Part shown: in pieces, positions 42,128-48,738 of the stretch | Position numbering within the stretch: the first letter of the stretch is position 1 | How the letters are laid out: each line of letters begins with the position of its first letter | DNA from: Pseudomonadota bacterium | GTDB lineage: Bacteria > Pseudomonadota > Alphaproteobacteria > UBA2136 > UBA6156 | NCBI GenBank assembly: GCA_016125035.1 | Contig: WGMN01000009.1 | Span: 1 to 64,000 of the forward strand | Length of the DNA: 64,000 nucleotides | Direction: 5' to 3' | Translations under genes and position numbers: made by a program | Notes under the pieces: model-generated | The model's database searches: none | What the model was told of the DNA's origin: nothing | Seen by the model: the letters and a program-made list of their open reading frames with translations, nothing else

Positions 42128-42291
42128 TGCCCGTACCGTAACCCGTAATCCGTGGCCCGTGGCCCGCAGGCGGCCGTGGGTGGGCCGGGAACGAATTATT
42201 CTCTAAACTTGCGAAGACTCACTACGGGTTACGGGCCACGGGTTACGGGCCACGGGCCACGGGCCACGGATTACGGATTACGAGTTACGAA
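42128..42291. repeat. Inverted pair of CCGTGGC/CGGGCCA heptamer arrays
   Basis: 42128-42170: CCGTAAC, CCGTAAT, CCGTGGC, CCGTGGC, CCGCAGG. 42223-42291: CGGGTTA, CGGGCCA, CGGGTTA, CGGGCCA (three times), CGGATTA (twice), CGAGTTA. The two are reverse complements around a ~52-bp spacer, and the second supplies the last residues (RNS) and stop codon of fabF. Confidence 0.78.
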
Positions 42292-43519
42292 AAATCAAAC
42301 TCGCATTGGTCCCGCCAAACCCAAAGCTGTTCGAGAGCACCGCCCGCAGCCCCTCCACCTTGCGCGCCCCTTCGGGGATAACATCCAGCGCCACATCCTT
42401 GGCTTCCACATTCAAGGTCGGCGGCAGCAACTGGTCGCGCAGCGCCATAATGCTCACCACCGCCTCCAGCGCGCCGGCGGCGCCCAGCAGGTGGCCGGTG
42501 GCGCCTTTGGTGGAACTCACCGGCACGCCCACGCCAAACAAACCTTCAATCGCTGCCGCTTCCATCTCATCACCCGCAGGCGTGCTGGTGGCGTGGGCGT
42601 TAATGTAGCCAATGTCGTTCACGCCCAGCCCGGCCTCTTCCAGCGCCAGGCGCATCGCCCGCGCACTGCCTTTGCCGTCTGCCAAGGTCATGTGCCCGGC
42701 ATCTGCGGTCTGGCCAAAGCCTGCCACCACCGCCAACGCGCGCGCGCCCCGCGCCGCCGCCACTTCGGCGGCCTCCAGCACCAGCACGGCAGCGCCCTCG
42801 CCCATCACAAAACCGTCGCGCGCGGCGTCAAACGGGCGACTGGCTTTTTCCGGCACATCGTTAAAGCCGGTGCTCAGCGCACGCATCGCCGCAAAGCCGC
42901 CCACGCTGGTTGGGGTCACCGCCGCCTCGGCGCCGCCCACAATCACCATGTCGCACTCGCCCCATTCAATCAGGCGCTTGCCCCAGCCAATGGCATGCGC
43001 ACTGGTGGCGCAGGCGGAAACCGGGCACACATTCGGCCCCTTAAAGCCGTAAAGGATGCTCACCTGCCCGGCCAGCATGTTGGGCAGCATGGCGGGGATG
43101 AAAAACGGCGAGAGCCGCTTGGGCCCCTTCTCGCGGATAACCGCATCCGCCTCCTCAATCGCCGGCAACCCGCCAATGCCGGTGCCGATGATCACTCCGG
43201 CACGCTCTTTCAAGTCCTCGGGCAATTCCTTGCCCAGCAACCCGGCCTGGGCCAGGGCTTCCCGCGTGGCGGCCAACCCCAGCTGAATAAACCTGTCGCA
43301 GCGCTTCAAATCCTTCTCGGCCAAACCGGTGCTGACGGGGTCAAAACCCTTCACCTCGCCCGCCACCTGGCAGGCGTAGGCACCGGCGTCAAAATGGCTG
43401 ATGCGGCCAATACCGCTCTTTCCCGCCACCAAGCCCTGCCACACACTGTTGGCATCATTCCCCACACCGCACAGGGCCCCCAGCCCCGTCACCACCACCT
43501 GTCGCTTGGCCTCCGCCAT
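42278..43519 (-). CDS. fabF: 3-oxoacyl-ACP synthase II
   Basis: 413 residues. Condensing enzyme of fatty-acid elongation: active Cys in VSACATSAHAIGWG, the two histidines in NAHATSTPAGDE and SSTKGATGHLLGAAG, and the C-terminal NSFGFGGTNASL. ATG 43519 preferred over TTG two codons earlier. It follows acpP by 12 bp. The last three residues and the stop come from a heptamer repeat array. Confidence 0.96.
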   Translation of the reverse strand: MAEAKRQVVVTGLGALCGVGNDANSVWQGLVAGKSGIGRISHFDAGAYACQVAGEVKGFDPVSTGLAEKDLKRCDRFIQLGLAATREALAQAGLLGKELPEDLKERAGVIIGTGIGGLPAIEEADAVIREKGPKRLSPFFIPAMLPNMLAGQVSILYGFKGPNVCPVSACATSAHAIGWGKRLIEWGECDMVIVGGAEAAVTPTSVGGFAAMRALSTGFNDVPEKASRPFDAARDGFVMGEGAAVLVLEAAEVAAARGARALAVVAGFGQTADAGHMTLADGKGSARAMRLALEEAGLGVNDIGYINAHATSTPAGDEMEAAAIEGLFGVGVPVSSTKGATGHLLGAAGALEAVVSIMALRDQLLPPTLNVEAKDVALDVIPEGARKVEGLRAVLSNSFGFGGTNASLIFRNS

Positions 43520-43531
43520 GCTCAAAGGCCG

Positions 43532-43768
43532 CTACTGAGCGGCCTGCTCCACGTAATCAATCGCCGCCTTCACGGTGGTGATCTTCTCCGCCGCGGCATC
43601 CGGGATCTCAATCCCAAACTCATCTTCCAGCGCCATCACCAGCTGCACGGTGTCCAGGCTGTCGGCGCCCAGGTCGTCCACAAAACTCGCGCTATCAACC
43701 ACCTTGGCGGCATCCACGCCCAGGTTTTCGGCCACCAGTTGCTTCACTCGGCTCGCCACATCGCTCAT
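43532..43768 (-). CDS. acpP: Acyl carrier protein
   Basis: 78 residues. Phosphopantetheine attachment Ser in [15 protein letters not shown], followed by [24 protein letters not shown] lies 9-10 nt before ATG 43768, so an ATG three codons earlier, only 1 nt after the SD, is not the start. Central carrier for the surrounding fab genes. Confidence 0.97.
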
Positions 43769-43828
43769 CGTCGTCATTCTCCTTCATAAATAAGTTGGCC
43801 ATGGTTAGCGCAAACCCGGCCTTTAGGC

Positions 43829-44052
43829 AAGACAGAGCTGATAGCTTGCAGAGCTGGTAGCCGGTAGGGAGGGGCACAGCGGCAAATCAAAGCTCAGGTC
43901 CCCGGGCGGTGGCGGGGTGGAAAAATGTTCTTCACATTTTTCCGGGCCCCCGCCCCGATCCGGGGCCGCCCTCCGCCCCCTCCACCTCAAAGATTCCGGC
44001 GCAAAGCGCCGTCCCTAACAGCTCTATCAGCTCTGCAAGCTAAAAGCTCTTT
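43829..44052. repeat. Inverted CAGCTCTGCAAGCTA arrays around a hairpin
   Basis: 43829-43866 and 44014-44052 carry reverse-complementary short tandem words (CAGCTCTGCAAGCTAT / CAGCTCTG units of 8-9 bp). Between them a perfect 10-bp hairpin GGAAAAATGT-tcttc-ACATTTTTCC (43919-43943) is nested in a GGCGGGG/CCCCGCC stem (43911-43954). The second array supplies the last residues (SLQS) and stop codon of the dienelactone hydrolase gene. The rest of 43769-44026 has no gene. Confidence 0.7.
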
Positions 44053-44716
44053 CAAACATCTCCAACGTCCTCTCCCGCGCCAAGCGGGCAGCCTCCGGCT
44101 CATAGGTCTTGCCGTCATCGCGGTTAAAGCCGTGGTCGGCGTCGTAGGCAAACACCGGGCACCCCGGGTCATACTGGCTAAAGGCGGCAATGGTCTTCTC
44201 CAGCGGAATATACCTGTCCAGCCGGGCCAGATGCACCATGCGCGGGCACTCTGGCTGGCCCCAGGCCACAATCTCCCACAGCCAGCCACCGTAGTAGCAA
44301 CTTGCGGCCACAATGTCTTTAATGTTCGCCGCCGCCAGATAGCTGCAACTGCCGCCCCAGCAATAGCCAACCACTGCGGTCTTCAGGCCTTCCGCCCGCG
44401 CCCAGTCCACACACAACCGCACGGTCTCAATAATCTGCTCCTTGCTGGTCAACCCAATCAACCGCCGCCCCTCATCCAAGCCATCCTTGTCCTGGCCAAG
44501 CACGGTGCCGCCGGCCTTGCCCAGCGCCCAGCTGAACAAATGCGGCGCCACCGCCACATAGCCTTGCCCGGCATAGTCCGCACATACGCTTTTAATGTGC
44601 GGGGTCACGCCAAAGGCCTCATGCAACACCACCACGCAGCCGCGCGCCTTGCCCTTGGGTTTTTCCACAAAAGCGCCAACCTCATGGCCGTCCACGGCCT
44701 GCAAAACCAAATCCAT
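44027..44716 (-). CDS. Dienelactone hydrolase family protein
   Basis: 229 residues. Alpha/beta hydrolase with the DLH triad: nucleophile Cys in VVGYCWGGSCSYL, Asp in the ARLDRYIP region and His in YDADHGFNRDD. Probable carboxymethylenebutenolidase or broad carboxylesterase. ATG 44716 gives the normal start (MDLVLQAVDGHEVGAF). Upstream, TTGTCA and TTAGGT are spaced by 17 bp just before the ATG, a good promoter with almost no leader. Not part of the fab pathway despite its position. Confidence 0.88.
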   Translation of the reverse strand: MDLVLQAVDGHEVGAFVEKPKGKARGCVVVLHEAFGVTPHIKSVCADYAGQGYVAVAPHLFSWALGKAGGTVLGQDKDGLDEGRRLIGLTSKEQIIETVRLCVDWARAEGLKTAVVGYCWGGSCSYLAAANIKDIVAASCYYGGWLWEIVAWGQPECPRMVHLARLDRYIPLEKTIAAFSQYDPGCPVFAYDADHGFNRDDGKTYEPEAARLARERTLEMFERAFSLQS

Positions 44717-44833: not shown

Positions 44834-45130
44834 ATGACCGACAAAATCACCCAACTGCTTCTCAACGCCCTGACTGAACTCACTGGCACCAGCGCCAGTA
44901 AATTCGATGAGCAGCCGATGCTCGCCAACGTTGAAGAGTTCGACACCATCATCCTCGCCGAATTACCGATGACTCTCGACGACGCCCTGGCGGAAAAAGA
45001 GGCTGTTCCCACCAACTGGATCGGCCTGCCGCCCAATCTCTTCCAAGGCTGCGACAAACTCACCGACCTCGCCGCCAGGCTGCGCGCGGAACTGGCCCAA
45101 TTCCCGGAAGCCCAGCCTCTGTTCAACTAA
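44834..45130 (+). CDS. Serine-less acyl-carrier-like protein 1
   Basis: 98 residues. Size, acidity and helix pattern follow acyl carrier proteins (ITQLLLNALTELTG ... FDTIILAELPMTLDDALAEK ... CDKLTDLAARLRAEL). Aligned to the AcpP of this window, the DSLDT attachment segment reads EEFDT, so the phosphopantetheine serine is a glutamate. A ~12-residue insertion (VPTNWIGLPPNL) follows. AAAGG lies 10 nt upstream of the ATG. It sits inside the fab cluster on the opposite strand with a second ACP-like gene downstream. Similarity is by eye. Confidence 0.5.
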   Translation: MTDKITQLLLNALTELTGTSASKFDEQPMLANVEEFDTIILAELPMTLDDALAEKEAVPTNWIGLPPNLFQGCDKLTDLAARLRAELAQFPEAQPLFN

Positions 45131-45155
45131 AGCGCCGCCCCGCGCCAAAAACCGA

Positions 45156-45186
45156 GAAAGCCCGGCCACGCGCCGGGCTTTTCCTT
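45156..45186 (+). terminator. Terminator, first copy
   Basis: aaagcccggc-cacgc-gccgggctttt. The same 26 bases recur after the second ACP-like gene at 45546-45571. Confidence 0.85.
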
Positions 45187-45250
45187 TTGACCTCCCCCCT
45201 CTCTTACAGCTAAATACACCCACGTAAACCCTCCAGAGCAGGAACACCCC

Positions 45251-45520
45251 ATGGCTGACCGCGCAAAATTGCTTTTCATCGCCCGCATGGCCATCATCGG
45301 CATCCGCGATATCGAACCGGAAACCCTCGCGGAAGACGCCCGCCTGGTCGAAGACCTCGGCATGACAGGCGAAACCTACTATGAAATGACCGAAGACCTC
45401 ACCGACCTCCTTGCGGAAGAAGGCCTCGGCCATGATATCCGGCCCGACACGTCCGCCTGCGCCACTGTCGGCGACGTCGTCAATGCTATCCAAATGGCCC
45501 TCCCGGCCTCCGTGGCCTAA
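45251..45520 (+). CDS. Serine-less acyl-carrier-like protein 2
   Basis: 89 residues. LVEDLGMTGETYYEMTEDLTDLLAEEGL aligns well with Acp[26 protein letters not shown], and TVGDVVNAIQMAL with [12 protein letters not shown], so an ACP fold is likely. The attachment serine is replaced (GMTGETYY; Gly at the Ser position), so it cannot carry phosphopantetheine in the standard way. AGAGCAGGAA precedes the ATG. It may be a non-carrying partner or regulator of lipid enzymes, which is inference only. Confidence 0.6.
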   Translation: MADRAKLLFIARMAIIGIRDIEPETLAEDARLVEDLGMTGETYYEMTEDLTDLLAEEGLGHDIRPDTSACATVGDVVNAIQMALPASVA

Positions 45521-45544
45521 AAGCCCATCCCCCGCCAAAATCGA

Positions 45545-45573
45545 GAAAGCCCGGCCACGCGCCGGGCTTTTCA
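45545..45573 (+). terminator. Terminator, second copy
   Basis: Same aaagcccggc-cacgc-gccgggctttt hairpin as at 45156, between the convergent ACP-like 2 and four-helix-bundle genes. The identical terminators imply a duplicated gene-plus-terminator unit. Confidence 0.85.
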
Positions 45574-46005
45574 CTTTTGCGTTTTCATCACCTGCAACAT
45601 GCGGGCCACCTCGGCATAGGCCAAGCGCCAGGCTTCCCATTCTTTTTTGGAAATCAACTTCATATCCAGACAGTACCGCAACCACACGCGCATTTCCTCA
45701 GCGGAACCCAACGCCATGCCGATAAACCGCTTAAACTCAGCGCGTGAAGCCTTTTTGCCGAAACCCTCGGCGATGTTGGCGCAAATCCCGCGGCAAGCCT
45801 TGCGCATCTGTTCTCCCAACCCACCCGGCCAAAGCTCATGCCGAGGGAAACCCTCGGTAACCTTCAATATCTCCAGCGAAACCCGATAAGCCTTTCTAAA
45901 AACCACCAAATCCTCAAAATTCCGCGCATAAGGCAACCTAACCTTCCCCGCCGCCTCCCTTTCTGCGTCTCTGCGCGTCTGCCTGTCTGCGATCTGTTCA
46001 GACAT
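45571..46005 (-). CDS. Four-helix bundle (S23-type) protein
   Basis: 144 residues. NFEDLVVFRKAYRVSLEILKVTEGFP, LGEQMRKACRGICANIAEGFGK and EFKRFIGMALGSAEEMRVWLRYC are the signature helices of the four-helix bundle/'23S rRNA intervening sequence' protein family, of unknown role and often mobile. The first ~20 residues, before the domain, are encoded by tandem TCTGCG octamers (45961-46000) and look like an acquired N-terminal extension. The start overlaps the fabG stop by 8 bp, so it has joined the fab operon. Confidence 0.8.
   Translation of the reverse strand: MSEQIADRQTRRDAEREAAGKVRLPYARNFEDLVVFRKAYRVSLEILKVTEGFPRHELWPGGLGEQMRKACRGICANIAEGFGKKASRAEFKRFIGMALGSAEEMRVWLRYCLDMKLISKKEWEAWRLAYAEVARMLQVMKTQK
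45961..46000. repeat. TCTGCG octamer array at gene start
   Basis: Tandem octamers TCTGCGTC, TCTGCGCG, TCTGCCTG, TCTGCGAT, encoding the N-terminal extension of the four-helix bundle protein just after its start codon. Confidence 0.7.
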
Positions 46006-46738
46006 ACATCCCCCCATTCACATGCAAAGTGCTGCCGGTAATATACCCCGCCTCCCTGCTGGCCAGAAAAGCCACCGCCGCCGCAATCTCCTTGGCCTCG
46101 CCAAACCGCTGCGCGGGGATCTGCTTCACAAAACCCTCCTTCACCCCATCCGGCAGCGGCGCGGTCATGTCGGTGTTGATGAACCCCGGCGCCACCGCAT
46201 TCACCGTCACGCCCTTCCTCGCCACTTCCTTGGCCAAACTCTTGGTGAAGCCGGTCAACGCCGCCTTGGTGGTCACGTAGTTGGTCTGCCCCACATTGCC
46301 CATGTGCGCCACAATGCTGGTCATGTTCACAATCCGCCCATGGCCCTTTTTCAGCATGGCGGGCAGCAACGCGCGGGTCAGCTGCACCACCCGCTTGATG
46401 TTCACAATCCCCACCTCATCCCACTGCTGCTGGCTCTGGCGCACAAACAACGCATCCCGCGTAATCCCCGCATTGTTGACCAGAATATCCACGCCCCCCG
46501 GCGCCTCGGCCTCCACAAAGGCCAGAATCTTCTCCATGCAGTCGTCCTTCAGCAAATCCGCCGCCACGCCTTTGCACCCCATCTCCCCACAAGCCTTCGC
46601 CACACTCTCGGCACTACTCCCATGAATCATCACCGTCGCCCCATGGTCGCGCAACATCTCGGCGGTGGCGCGCCCAATCCCCCGGCTCCCCCCGGTCACC
46701 AAAGCCACCATCCCCGTCAAATCGCCAAACTGCGCCAT
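45998..46738 (-). CDS. fabG: 3-oxoacyl-ACP reductase
   Basis: 246 residues. SDR enzyme: NADPH-binding TGGSRGIGRATA, NNAG motif LVNNAGITRDALF, catalytic Ser in NMTSIVAHMGNVGQ and the YxxxK pair in NYVTTKAALTGF, then PGFINTDMT. Reduces 3-ketoacyl-ACP in fatty-acid elongation. It lies between fabD and acpP, as usual in the order, but separated from both by inserted genes. Confidence 0.95.
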   Translation of the reverse strand: MAQFGDLTGMVALVTGGSRGIGRATAEMLRDHGATVMIHGSSAESVAKACGEMGCKGVAADLLKDDCMEKILAFVEAEAPGGVDILVNNAGITRDALFVRQSQQQWDEVGIVNIKRVVQLTRALLPAMLKKGHGRIVNMTSIVAHMGNVGQTNYVTTKAALTGFTKSLAKEVARKGVTVNAVAPGFINTDMTAPLPDGVKEGFVKQIPAQRFGEAKEIAAAVAFLASREAGYITGSTLHVNGGMYV

Positions 46739-46912
46739 TGCCTGTTCTTCCTTTATGTCCCCACCCTCATAGCCTCAACCCCCCACCACAAGCAACCCCC
46801 CTGCCCACTTCGCCGCCCACAAATCCTTTGAAAGTCGCGCCCACCTATGGCATACGCAATTTAAGCTTAGTGCCATCCGTGTTTTCTGCACCCTTGCCAA
46901 AGGATGAATCCT

Positions 46913-47611
46913 ATGACCGACACCCATACCGCGCCGCCACGGCGCATGCTGCCGCTTGTCGACCTCACGCAACCTTCCTTTGCCCGCGCCAAAAACCGGC
47001 ATTGGCTCACACCAGCCGAGCTGGCCACACTGTCACCGGACAGCGCTGTTGGCGTGGCTCCAGGGGCTCCCTCCCCCCTACACTTCCGCTCACTGCTGCT
47101 GGGCAGTATTCTCGCTCTCAACGCAGTCCATGTGGAAACTTTGCTGGCTCACCCTCTGGCCACACCGGAAATGCTGAATAAAACTGACCCCACCGGCGGT
47201 TTTGACGAAAACGGACTGCGCAAAGCTACCTTCCTCGGCTGTGCTGCCACCGTGGATGTCAAAAACAACCCGGAAAATCTGGTGTTCAAGCTCGGCGTCA
47301 TCAACATGCTGATCCGCGCCGGGGCCACCAACGTCAACGGCTGCTTTTACTATGTTGGGGAGAGTGGGCTTTCCGCTTTCTCAGCCATATGCAACGGCTA
47401 CTTAATGGAGGGCATCCCCGAAGACCTTCATAAAAAGCTGGTGCAGCACTTCCTCTCGCTCGGCGGCGACCCGTTCTTGCGCACTCACCCGATCGCCACC
47501 ACCGCCTACGAGATTGCGTCAGAAACCTGCCCTTATCTGCTGGAGGTGCTACCACCCCTGCCGCGTGACCTCTTCGGCAAACCCACCGACCCCTTCAGCA
47601 AAATCAACTGA
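46913..47611 (+). CDS. Unknown protein in the fab cluster
   Basis: 232 residues, not recognised. No signal peptide or membrane helix is obvious apart from a weak hydrophobic stretch (FRSLLLGSILALNAVHVETLL). The middle has GFDENGLRKATFLGCAATVDVKNNPENLVFKLGVINMLIRAGATNVNGCFYY, and the overall layout of short helices and turns with repeated A/G/L helices loosely recalls ankyrin-like repeats, but no repeat consensus fits. AAAGGA precedes ATG 46913; an earlier ATG overlaps the SD. Transcribed against fabD and fabG, ended by a strong terminator. Confidence 0.55.
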   Translation: MTDTHTAPPRRMLPLVDLTQPSFARAKNRHWLTPAELATLSPDSAVGVAPGAPSPLHFRSLLLGSILALNAVHVETLLAHPLATPEMLNKTDPTGGFDENGLRKATFLGCAATVDVKNNPENLVFKLGVINMLIRAGATNVNGCFYYVGESGLSAFSAICNGYLMEGIPEDLHKKLVQHFLSLGGDPFLRTHPIATTAYEIASETCPYLLEVLPPLPRDLFGKPTDPFSKIN

Positions 47612-47627
47612 AGCGATCCCCACGGAA

Positions 47628-47657
47628 ACAAAACGGCGCCTTCGGGCGCCGTTTTTT
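47628..47657 (+). terminator. UUCG-loop terminator
   Basis: aaaacggcgcc-ttcg-ggcgccgttttt: perfect stem with UUCG tetraloop and T run, between the convergent unknown gene and fabD. Confidence 0.9.
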
Positions 47658-48615
47658 AATACCCCACCTGCCTCAACCACTCCTCCACCTCCCCCGGCGC
47701 CTCCAAACTCACCCCCACCAACCGCCCATCACACCGCCCCGCCAACCCGGCCAGCACCTTCCCCACCCCCAGCTCCACCACCTCCACCTTCCCCTCGCTA
47801 CCTCGTTCCTCGTTCCTCGTTCCTTCTTCCGCCACCAGCATCATCCCCTCTCTCCAACGCACGCGAGAACTCACCTGCGCCACCAGCCCCGCCCGCACCT
47901 TTTCGGCCTCACGCTCGGCCACCGCCGTGGCATTCATCACGCAAGGAACAACAAGCTCCTTCAAACCCTTAAAACCTAAATATTCACCCACTTTCTCACC
48001 CGCAGGCCGCATCCCCGCGGTGTGGAAAGCCCCACTCACATTCAGCCGCAAAACACGCTTGGCCCCGGCGTCCTTCGCCGCCGCCTCAAACGCCACAAAC
48101 CCCTCCTCCGGGCCAGAAAAAACCACCTGCCCCGGGCAATTGTCATTGGCTAAAACCCACCCCCCCGCCTGAGACCCTGAGACCCTGAGATCCTGAGATC
48201 CTAACCCCAGTACCGCCGCCATCGCCCCGCCCCTCACCGCCGCCATCTCCTGCCCGCGCAGCCGCACACAGCCCAGCGCGGTGGCAAAATCCATGCCCCC
48301 CGCCGCGCACACGGCGGTGTACTCACCCAGGCTGTGCCCGGCCACGTAGCCAGCAACCTCACTCAACGGCTTATTCACGCACTTTATCAAATGGTTAAAC
48401 GCCAGCATCCCGGCCACCAGCAACGCCGGCTGGGCGTTCTGGGTCAGCGTCAGCTCCTCCAGCGGCCCCTCGGCCATCAGGCGGGAAAGCCCAAACCCCA
48501 AAACATCATCCGCCTCTTCCAAAAGCTCCCGCCCCCCCTGCGTGGCGGCAAAGGCCCCGCCCATGCCCACCACCTGGCTGCCCTGTCCGGGGAACACAAA
48601 AACCCTGTTTTTCAC
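47656..48615 (-). CDS. fabD: Malonyl-CoA:ACP transacylase
   Basis: 319 residues. Loads malonyl onto ACP. FVFPGQGSQ start, nucleophile GHSLGEY, catalytic His in NVSGAFHTAGM, NDNCPGQVVFSG. A GTG at 48615 with AAGGG 8 nt upstream is chosen; no good ATG start exists in this position. Two in-frame microrepeat insertions are visible: SQDLRVSGSQ in the loop before ANDNCPGQ (CCTGAGA octamers, 48167-48206), and EEGTRNEERGSEGK before VVELGVGKVL (CTCGTTC element, 47792-47830). Both fall where homologues have short variable loops. Confidence 0.94.
   Translation of the reverse strand: MKNRVFVFPGQGSQVVGMGGAFAATQGGRELLEEADDVLGFGLSRLMAEGPLEELTLTQNAQPALLVAGMLAFNHLIKCVNKPLSEVAGYVAGHSLGEYTAVCAAGGMDFATALGCVRLRGQEMAAVRGGAMAAVLGLGSQDLRVSGSQAGGWVLANDNCPGQVVFSGPEEGFVAFEAAAKDAGAKRVLRLNVSGAFHTAGMRPAGEKVGEYLGFKGLKELVVPCVMNATAVAEREAEKVRAGLVAQVSSRVRWREGMMLVAEEGTRNEERGSEGKVEVVELGVGKVLAGLAGRCDGRLVGVSLEAPGEVEEWLRQVGY
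47792..47830. repeat. CTCGTTC element inside fabD
   Basis: TACCTCGTTCCTCGTTCCTC units ending in TTCCTTCTTCC. The same sequence occurs inside rlmE (56281-56320) and across its stop codon (55974-56014). On the minus strand it encodes TRNEERGSE here and [11 protein letters not shown] in RlmE. Confidence 0.85.
48167..48206. repeat. CCTGAGA octamer array inside fabD
   Basis: Five octamers (GCCTGAGA, CCCTGAGA, CCCTGAGA, TCCTGAGA, TCCTAACC) in frame in a variable loop of FabD (SQDLRVSGSQ). Confidence 0.8.
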
Positions 48616-48738
48616 ACCAAAATCCCTTGCACATCCCCCCTTAATATGCAAGAGAGACGCCACAACCTTGCTCATCCCCCGTGGATGGGCGCCCGGGCAC
48701 CCACCAGGGGCCCTTAACCAAAAGGAGAGAACAGGCAA

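Follow-up and report, generated by a model that had tools for sequence, protein, structure and literature searches.

Does a fatty-acid synthesis (fab) cluster harbor, on the strand opposite to its own genes, acyl carrier proteins (ACPs) that lack the serine to which phosphopantetheine is attached? This question is raised by two small open reading frames (ORFs) in a 64,000-nucleotide stretch of an alphaproteobacterial contig, here called the window. The fab cluster of the window lies on the minus strand and consists of fabD (47656 to 48630, start picked by eye), fabG (45998 to 46738), a gene encoding a four-helix-bundle protein (45571 to 46017; 23S rRNA IVP/TIGR02436), a dienelactone-hydrolase-like gene (DLH; about 44027 to 44716), acpP (43532 to 43777), and fabF (42278 to 43525), followed by mltG and gmk; in short, the gene order at the locus is rpsF/fabD-fabG-acpP-fabF-mltG-gmk, a synteny that points to an alphaproteobacterium. 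AcpP is canonical, with a DSLDT motif and matches in Pfam and NCBIfam, fabF was identified by sequence and synteny, and fabG and DLH have orthologues in relatives. The DLH start was also picked by eye, the open ORF beginning at 44854. Located in the gap between DLH and the four-helix-bundle gene, on the plus strand and hence opposite to fabF, acpP, fabG, and fabD, are P1 (44834 to 45130), an acidic protein of 98 amino acids (aa), and its tandem partner P2 (45251 to 45520), an ACP-like protein of 89 aa with a pI of 4.07, the motif DLGMTGETYYEM, and a glycine at the position of the phosphopantetheine serine. P1 and DLH are divergent and about 117 bp apart.

Two neighbors of this pair were recorded in their own right. 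The four-helix-bundle gene (23S rRNA IVP/bAvd-like) sits directly downstream of fabG, and its stop codon falls at the border of the P2 terminator; no such gene was found between fabG and DLH in the related genomes G001, G004, G007, and G009. A third opposite-strand ORFan, of 235 aa (46904 to 47611, plus strand), lies between fabG and fabD; it matched no Pfam or PHROG family and NCBIfam only below threshold.

Both P1 and P2 are intact ORFs, in tandem on the plus strand. Their codon usage, with log-odds per codon of 0.273 and 0.236, respectively, is typical of the genome and best in their own frame out of six (for comparison, acpP reached 0.523 and the four-helix-bundle gene 0.195). Each is followed by a terminator-like hairpin on the plus strand (45154 to 45183 for P1 and 45543 to 45572 for P2), the latter also lying where the convergent four-helix-bundle gene ends. 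The two hairpins are identical over 30 nt, and a search for their 25-nt core that tolerated as many as 3 mismatches found it only twice in the whole 1.45 Mb genome. According to the first-pass annotation, the ORFs are in tandem, have identical terminators, and run against the fab genes; the coordinates, the strands, and the 30-nt identity bear this out. Since these identical terminators follow dissimilar coding sequences and are found nowhere else in the genome, they suggest local copying or recombination. They also prompted the idea that P1 and P2 arose by tandem duplication, but the two proteins have no detectable similarity (score of 26, p = 0.54), and it is thus equally likely that the terminator was copied alone. 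An Rfam search at the P1/P2 locus gave no match.

P2 matched NCBIfam ACP models with E values of 9.3e-4 (residues 11 to 84) and 3.3e-3 (residues 20 to 84), below every curated ACP cutoff (19.3 bits versus a cutoff of 65 in NCBIfam), and matched no Pfam family even at an E value of 10. When scored with an HMM built from twelve normal ACPs found in the order (the AcpPs and the second ACP of genome G003), P2 ranked second, after AcpP, among the 221 window ORFs of 70 to 250 aa, with 6.2 bits versus 1.7 for the next ORF, and shuffled P2 attained its score in only 0.35% of the trials (p = 0.0035). The top four matches of a PDB sequence search were all ACPs (E values of 0.04 to 0.4). A single-sequence AlphaFold model of P2 had four helices at low confidence (pLDDT of 64), and its first eight Foldseek matches were all ACPs, but with E values of about 1 to 2 and TM scores of about 0.3, too weak to establish the fold.

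The alignment of P2 to ACPs reads DLG-M-T-G-E-T, in which T-G-E stands for D-S-L, with glycine at the place of the serine, and helix II is devoid of any serine. Identity to AcpP is about 20%, and P2 retains DLG, the acidic nature of helix II, the TVGDVV motif of helix IV, and an overall charge of -12.4 versus -11.5 for AcpP. It lacks the counterparts of two acidic residues used in docking, D35 and D38 (E. coli ACP numbering). Because the attachment serine is a glycine, P2 would not be phosphopantetheinylatable at the usual site. Judged by its sequence, P2 does belong to the ACP superfamily, if remotely, and stands outside the carrier family sensu stricto, being under all ACP cutoffs and without the serine.

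P1 behaved differently. It is equally acidic (pI of 4.07) and has a helix-I-like start followed by EEFDTIILAEL, but it matched no Pfam or NCBIfam family at an E value of 10 and gave no PDB sequence match. In shuffle tests, its scores against the ACP HMM and AcpP were not exceptional (p = 0.084 and 0.18, respectively), its hhalign P value was 0.21, and its rank of 5 by the ACP HMM among the window ORFs was at noise level. Its single-sequence model had a pLDDT of 57, and a single ACP, at rank 40, was found among the 50 Foldseek matches listed. Nor was P1 significantly similar to ACP, to P2, or to a 158-aa protein of genome G004 described below. The first-pass annotation had taken both proteins for serine-less ACPs, with the DSL serine replaced by glutamate in P1 and by glycine in P2. 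For P2, this agrees with the NCBIfam matches, the rank of second among 221, the shuffles, the PDB search, and serine-less relatives in three other genomes; for P1, the alignment to ACP is at chance level, and the exchange of serine for glutamate is thus unsupported. We therefore regard P1 as a co-oriented partner of P2 whose putative homology to ACP is not demonstrable.

When 18 whole genomes of the order were searched with a profile, exactly four serine-less proteins were recovered, P2 and three others, all of which are encoded in fab clusters. Genome G009, of the same family as the window genome G000, has a 101-aa ORF (L030:4095-4400, minus strand) between fabG and DLH, opposite to their strand, with glycine in place of the serine and an NCBIfam ACP match at an E value of 2.4e-6. 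At the same place and strand, G004, from another genus of this family, encodes an 85-aa protein (L040:7793-8050, minus strand; E value of 7.2e-5) in which the serine is an aspartate. In G014, from another family, an 84-aa ORF (L027:6512-6766, minus strand; E value of 8.8e-16) is divergent to fabD and opposite to the fab strand, and has a glutamate at this position. The residues at the D-S-L position are C-G-N, D-D-V, and D-E-I, respectively. G004 harbors in addition a 158-aa ORF (L040:7123-7599, minus strand) located 3' of the 85-aa ORF, with a long insert and an ACP-like C-terminal half; this half matched the AcpM model weakly (E value of 0.0081), reached a z score of 5.6 to AcpP, and has an asparagine at the serine position. 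The second ACP of G003 was also checked; its DSLDT motif is normal.

A clear Shine-Dalgarno sequence precedes the ACP-like ORFs of G004, G009, and G014, and codon bias supports them well in G014, weakly in G004 and G009, and not at all for the 158-aa ORF of G004. The G009 protein is grouped with P2 at 95/84 support, with a pairwise z score of 5.9, and the two are thus probably orthologues; long branches leave the proteins of G004 and G014 without a firm position in the tree. Orthologues with a normal DSL serine, a prospect raised by the first-pass annotation, did not occur: the detectable orthologue, in G009, has a glycine, and the other two relatives have an aspartate and a glutamate. One may speculate that the acid which, in G004 and G014, takes the place of the serine beside a retained aspartate might mimic the phosphopantetheine phosphate by its charge.

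The set is extremely divergent, its invariant columns being limited to DLG and one threonine. Moreover, the gene is missing at the locus in G001, a congener of the window genome, and in G007, a congener of G009, where fabG and DLH are adjacent, indicating that it is accessory and fast-evolving. At the level of sequence, these data show that one bacterial order keeps serine-less ACP-like genes in its fab clusters, on the opposite strand, and that this set is patchily distributed and fast-evolving. G001 has an unrelated, weakly ankyrin-like opposite-strand ORF between DLH and acpP (L026:6336-6719). In G005, of the same family (two contigs, 92% complete), searches for AcpP, PP-binding, and FabD gave no match, and the sole FabF-like gene was 41% identical; the fab cluster of this genome either falls in an assembly gap or has been lost.

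In a search across 385 genomes of the class, about 150 of the best matches were listed. Of the leading matches read, 30 given as loci and a close pair in G124, all but P2 had a normal DSL motif, and every one outside the order had DSL; weaker serine-less proteins, below the listed matches, may exist elsewhere. Besides chance matches, no close homologue of P1 or P2 was found in the genome, viral, and phage collections by tblastn or pattern search; L003, L004, L023, L024, and L025 were rejected as such chance matches, against larger ORFs or in unrelated proteins. Defence and phage families gave no match for P1 or P2, and titles and abstracts in the literature offered nothing on point about serine-less ACP paralogues.

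What might such a protein do? Many enzymes read the docking surface of ACP, which is a hub protein. The roles offered by the first-pass annotation for serine-less ACP-like proteins, as decoys, regulators, or scaffold subunits of lipid enzymes, are conjectural. We tentatively favor P2 being a non-carrier paralogue of the fatty-acid ACP, which most likely mimics ACP and modulates the enzymes of fatty-acid synthesis. Without the carrier serine, P2 would carry no acyl chain but retains an ACP-like acidic surface, and is best explained as a docking mimic or an adaptor; at most, its action would resemble that of an ACP docking surface. It may act stoichiometrically by occupying ACP-docking surfaces, those of AcpS, FabD/FabG/FabF, or acyltransferases, whereby the flux of fatty acids would be tuned or a complex assembled. 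Because P2-type genes adjoin fab genes, the Fab enzymes are the likeliest partners. The relatedness of P2 to ACP, the serine-less relatives in fab clusters, the Shine-Dalgarno sequences, and the AcpP-like acidity are in favor of a mimic, whereas the patchy presence, the extreme divergence, the lost docking acids, and the weak codon bias in G004 and G009 are against it. A bolder reading, which we consider rather improbable, is that fatty-acid synthesis here has a regulatory module of its own, made up of two lineage-specific non-carrier ACP mimics encoded within the fab operon but against its direction; their serine would have been exchanged for Gly, Asp, Glu, or Asn so that they dock on Fab enzymes without ever carrying a chain. 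Natural ACPs that lack the serine and are retained in fab clusters would serve as non-reactive mimics of ACP, already at hand for testing directly whether docking alone, without acyl transfer, regulates fatty-acid synthesis.

The main simple rival sees P2 and its relatives as acpP duplicates that are decaying or neutral and on course to be lost, their small size and position off the operon strand making them tolerable. Their patchy presence, their very high divergence, the loss of the catalytic serine, and the absence from a congener would all fit, but the ORFs of all four genomes, which span three genera of one family and a second family, are intact and have a start codon and a ribosome-binding site, DLG, the helix pattern, and the acidity are retained, and the genes in the window have their own terminators, so that we judge decay unlikely. 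Even less can be said for a chance resemblance of an orphan acidic helical ORF to ACP. The pLDDT of 64 and Foldseek E value of about 1 for P2 would allow it; however, relatives without the serine, encoded in fab clusters and in two cases at the same fabG-DLH position, match ACPs independently, and P2 is second of 221 ORFs with ACPs as its top PDB matches, making this very unlikely.

ACP folds also serve as protein partners or subunits of other complexes, and P2 could be an adaptor or partner subunit of a complex unrelated to fatty-acid synthesis that lies in the fab cluster only as a result of local duplication. This would account for the pairing with a second acidic protein in both the window genome and G004, but the location in fab clusters persists in all four genomes, and we find such a role somewhat unlikely. 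The proposal made at the outset, that P1 and P2 are both serine-less ACPs forming a pair, overlaps the other explanations, and the likelihoods given here do not sum to one. The similar layout in G004, where an ACP-like ORF is followed by the 158-aa ORF with its ACP-resembling C-terminal half, and the helix-I-like start and EEFDTIILAEL of P1 speak for a pair; since the similarity of P1 to ACP, P2, and the 158-aa protein is not significant, it is possible but doubtful.

Compared with known families, the phage-encoded ACP-like proteins (phrog_5934 and others) resemble the G014 protein (E value of 7.1e-8) and, weakly, the serine-less protein of G004; they differ from this locus in that P1 and P2 had no match there and tblastn found no phage relatives. 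DUF1493 (PF07377), a family of small ACP-like proteins seen in other Pseudomonadota, shares with P2 the pattern DLG-x-x-G-(D/E) and, in several members, a glycine at the serine position (DLGVDGDDA in L148), but has a longer C-terminal part. Against a profile made from ten DUF1493 matches, P2 outscored its shuffles (p = 0.002), though it did no better there than with the ACP profile. Membership of P2 in DUF1493 was rejected, there being no match at an E value of 10 (the Pfam gathering score is 21 bits) and no DUF1493 match in the window genome. From AcpP (PF00550; NCBIfam PRK00982/TIGR00517 and PRK05350), P2 differs in its glycine at the attachment serine, its sub-cutoff scores, its opposite strand, and its identity of about 20%; it shares with AcpP the length, the acidity, the DLG before helix II, the TVGDVV of helix IV, and the genomic neighborhood.
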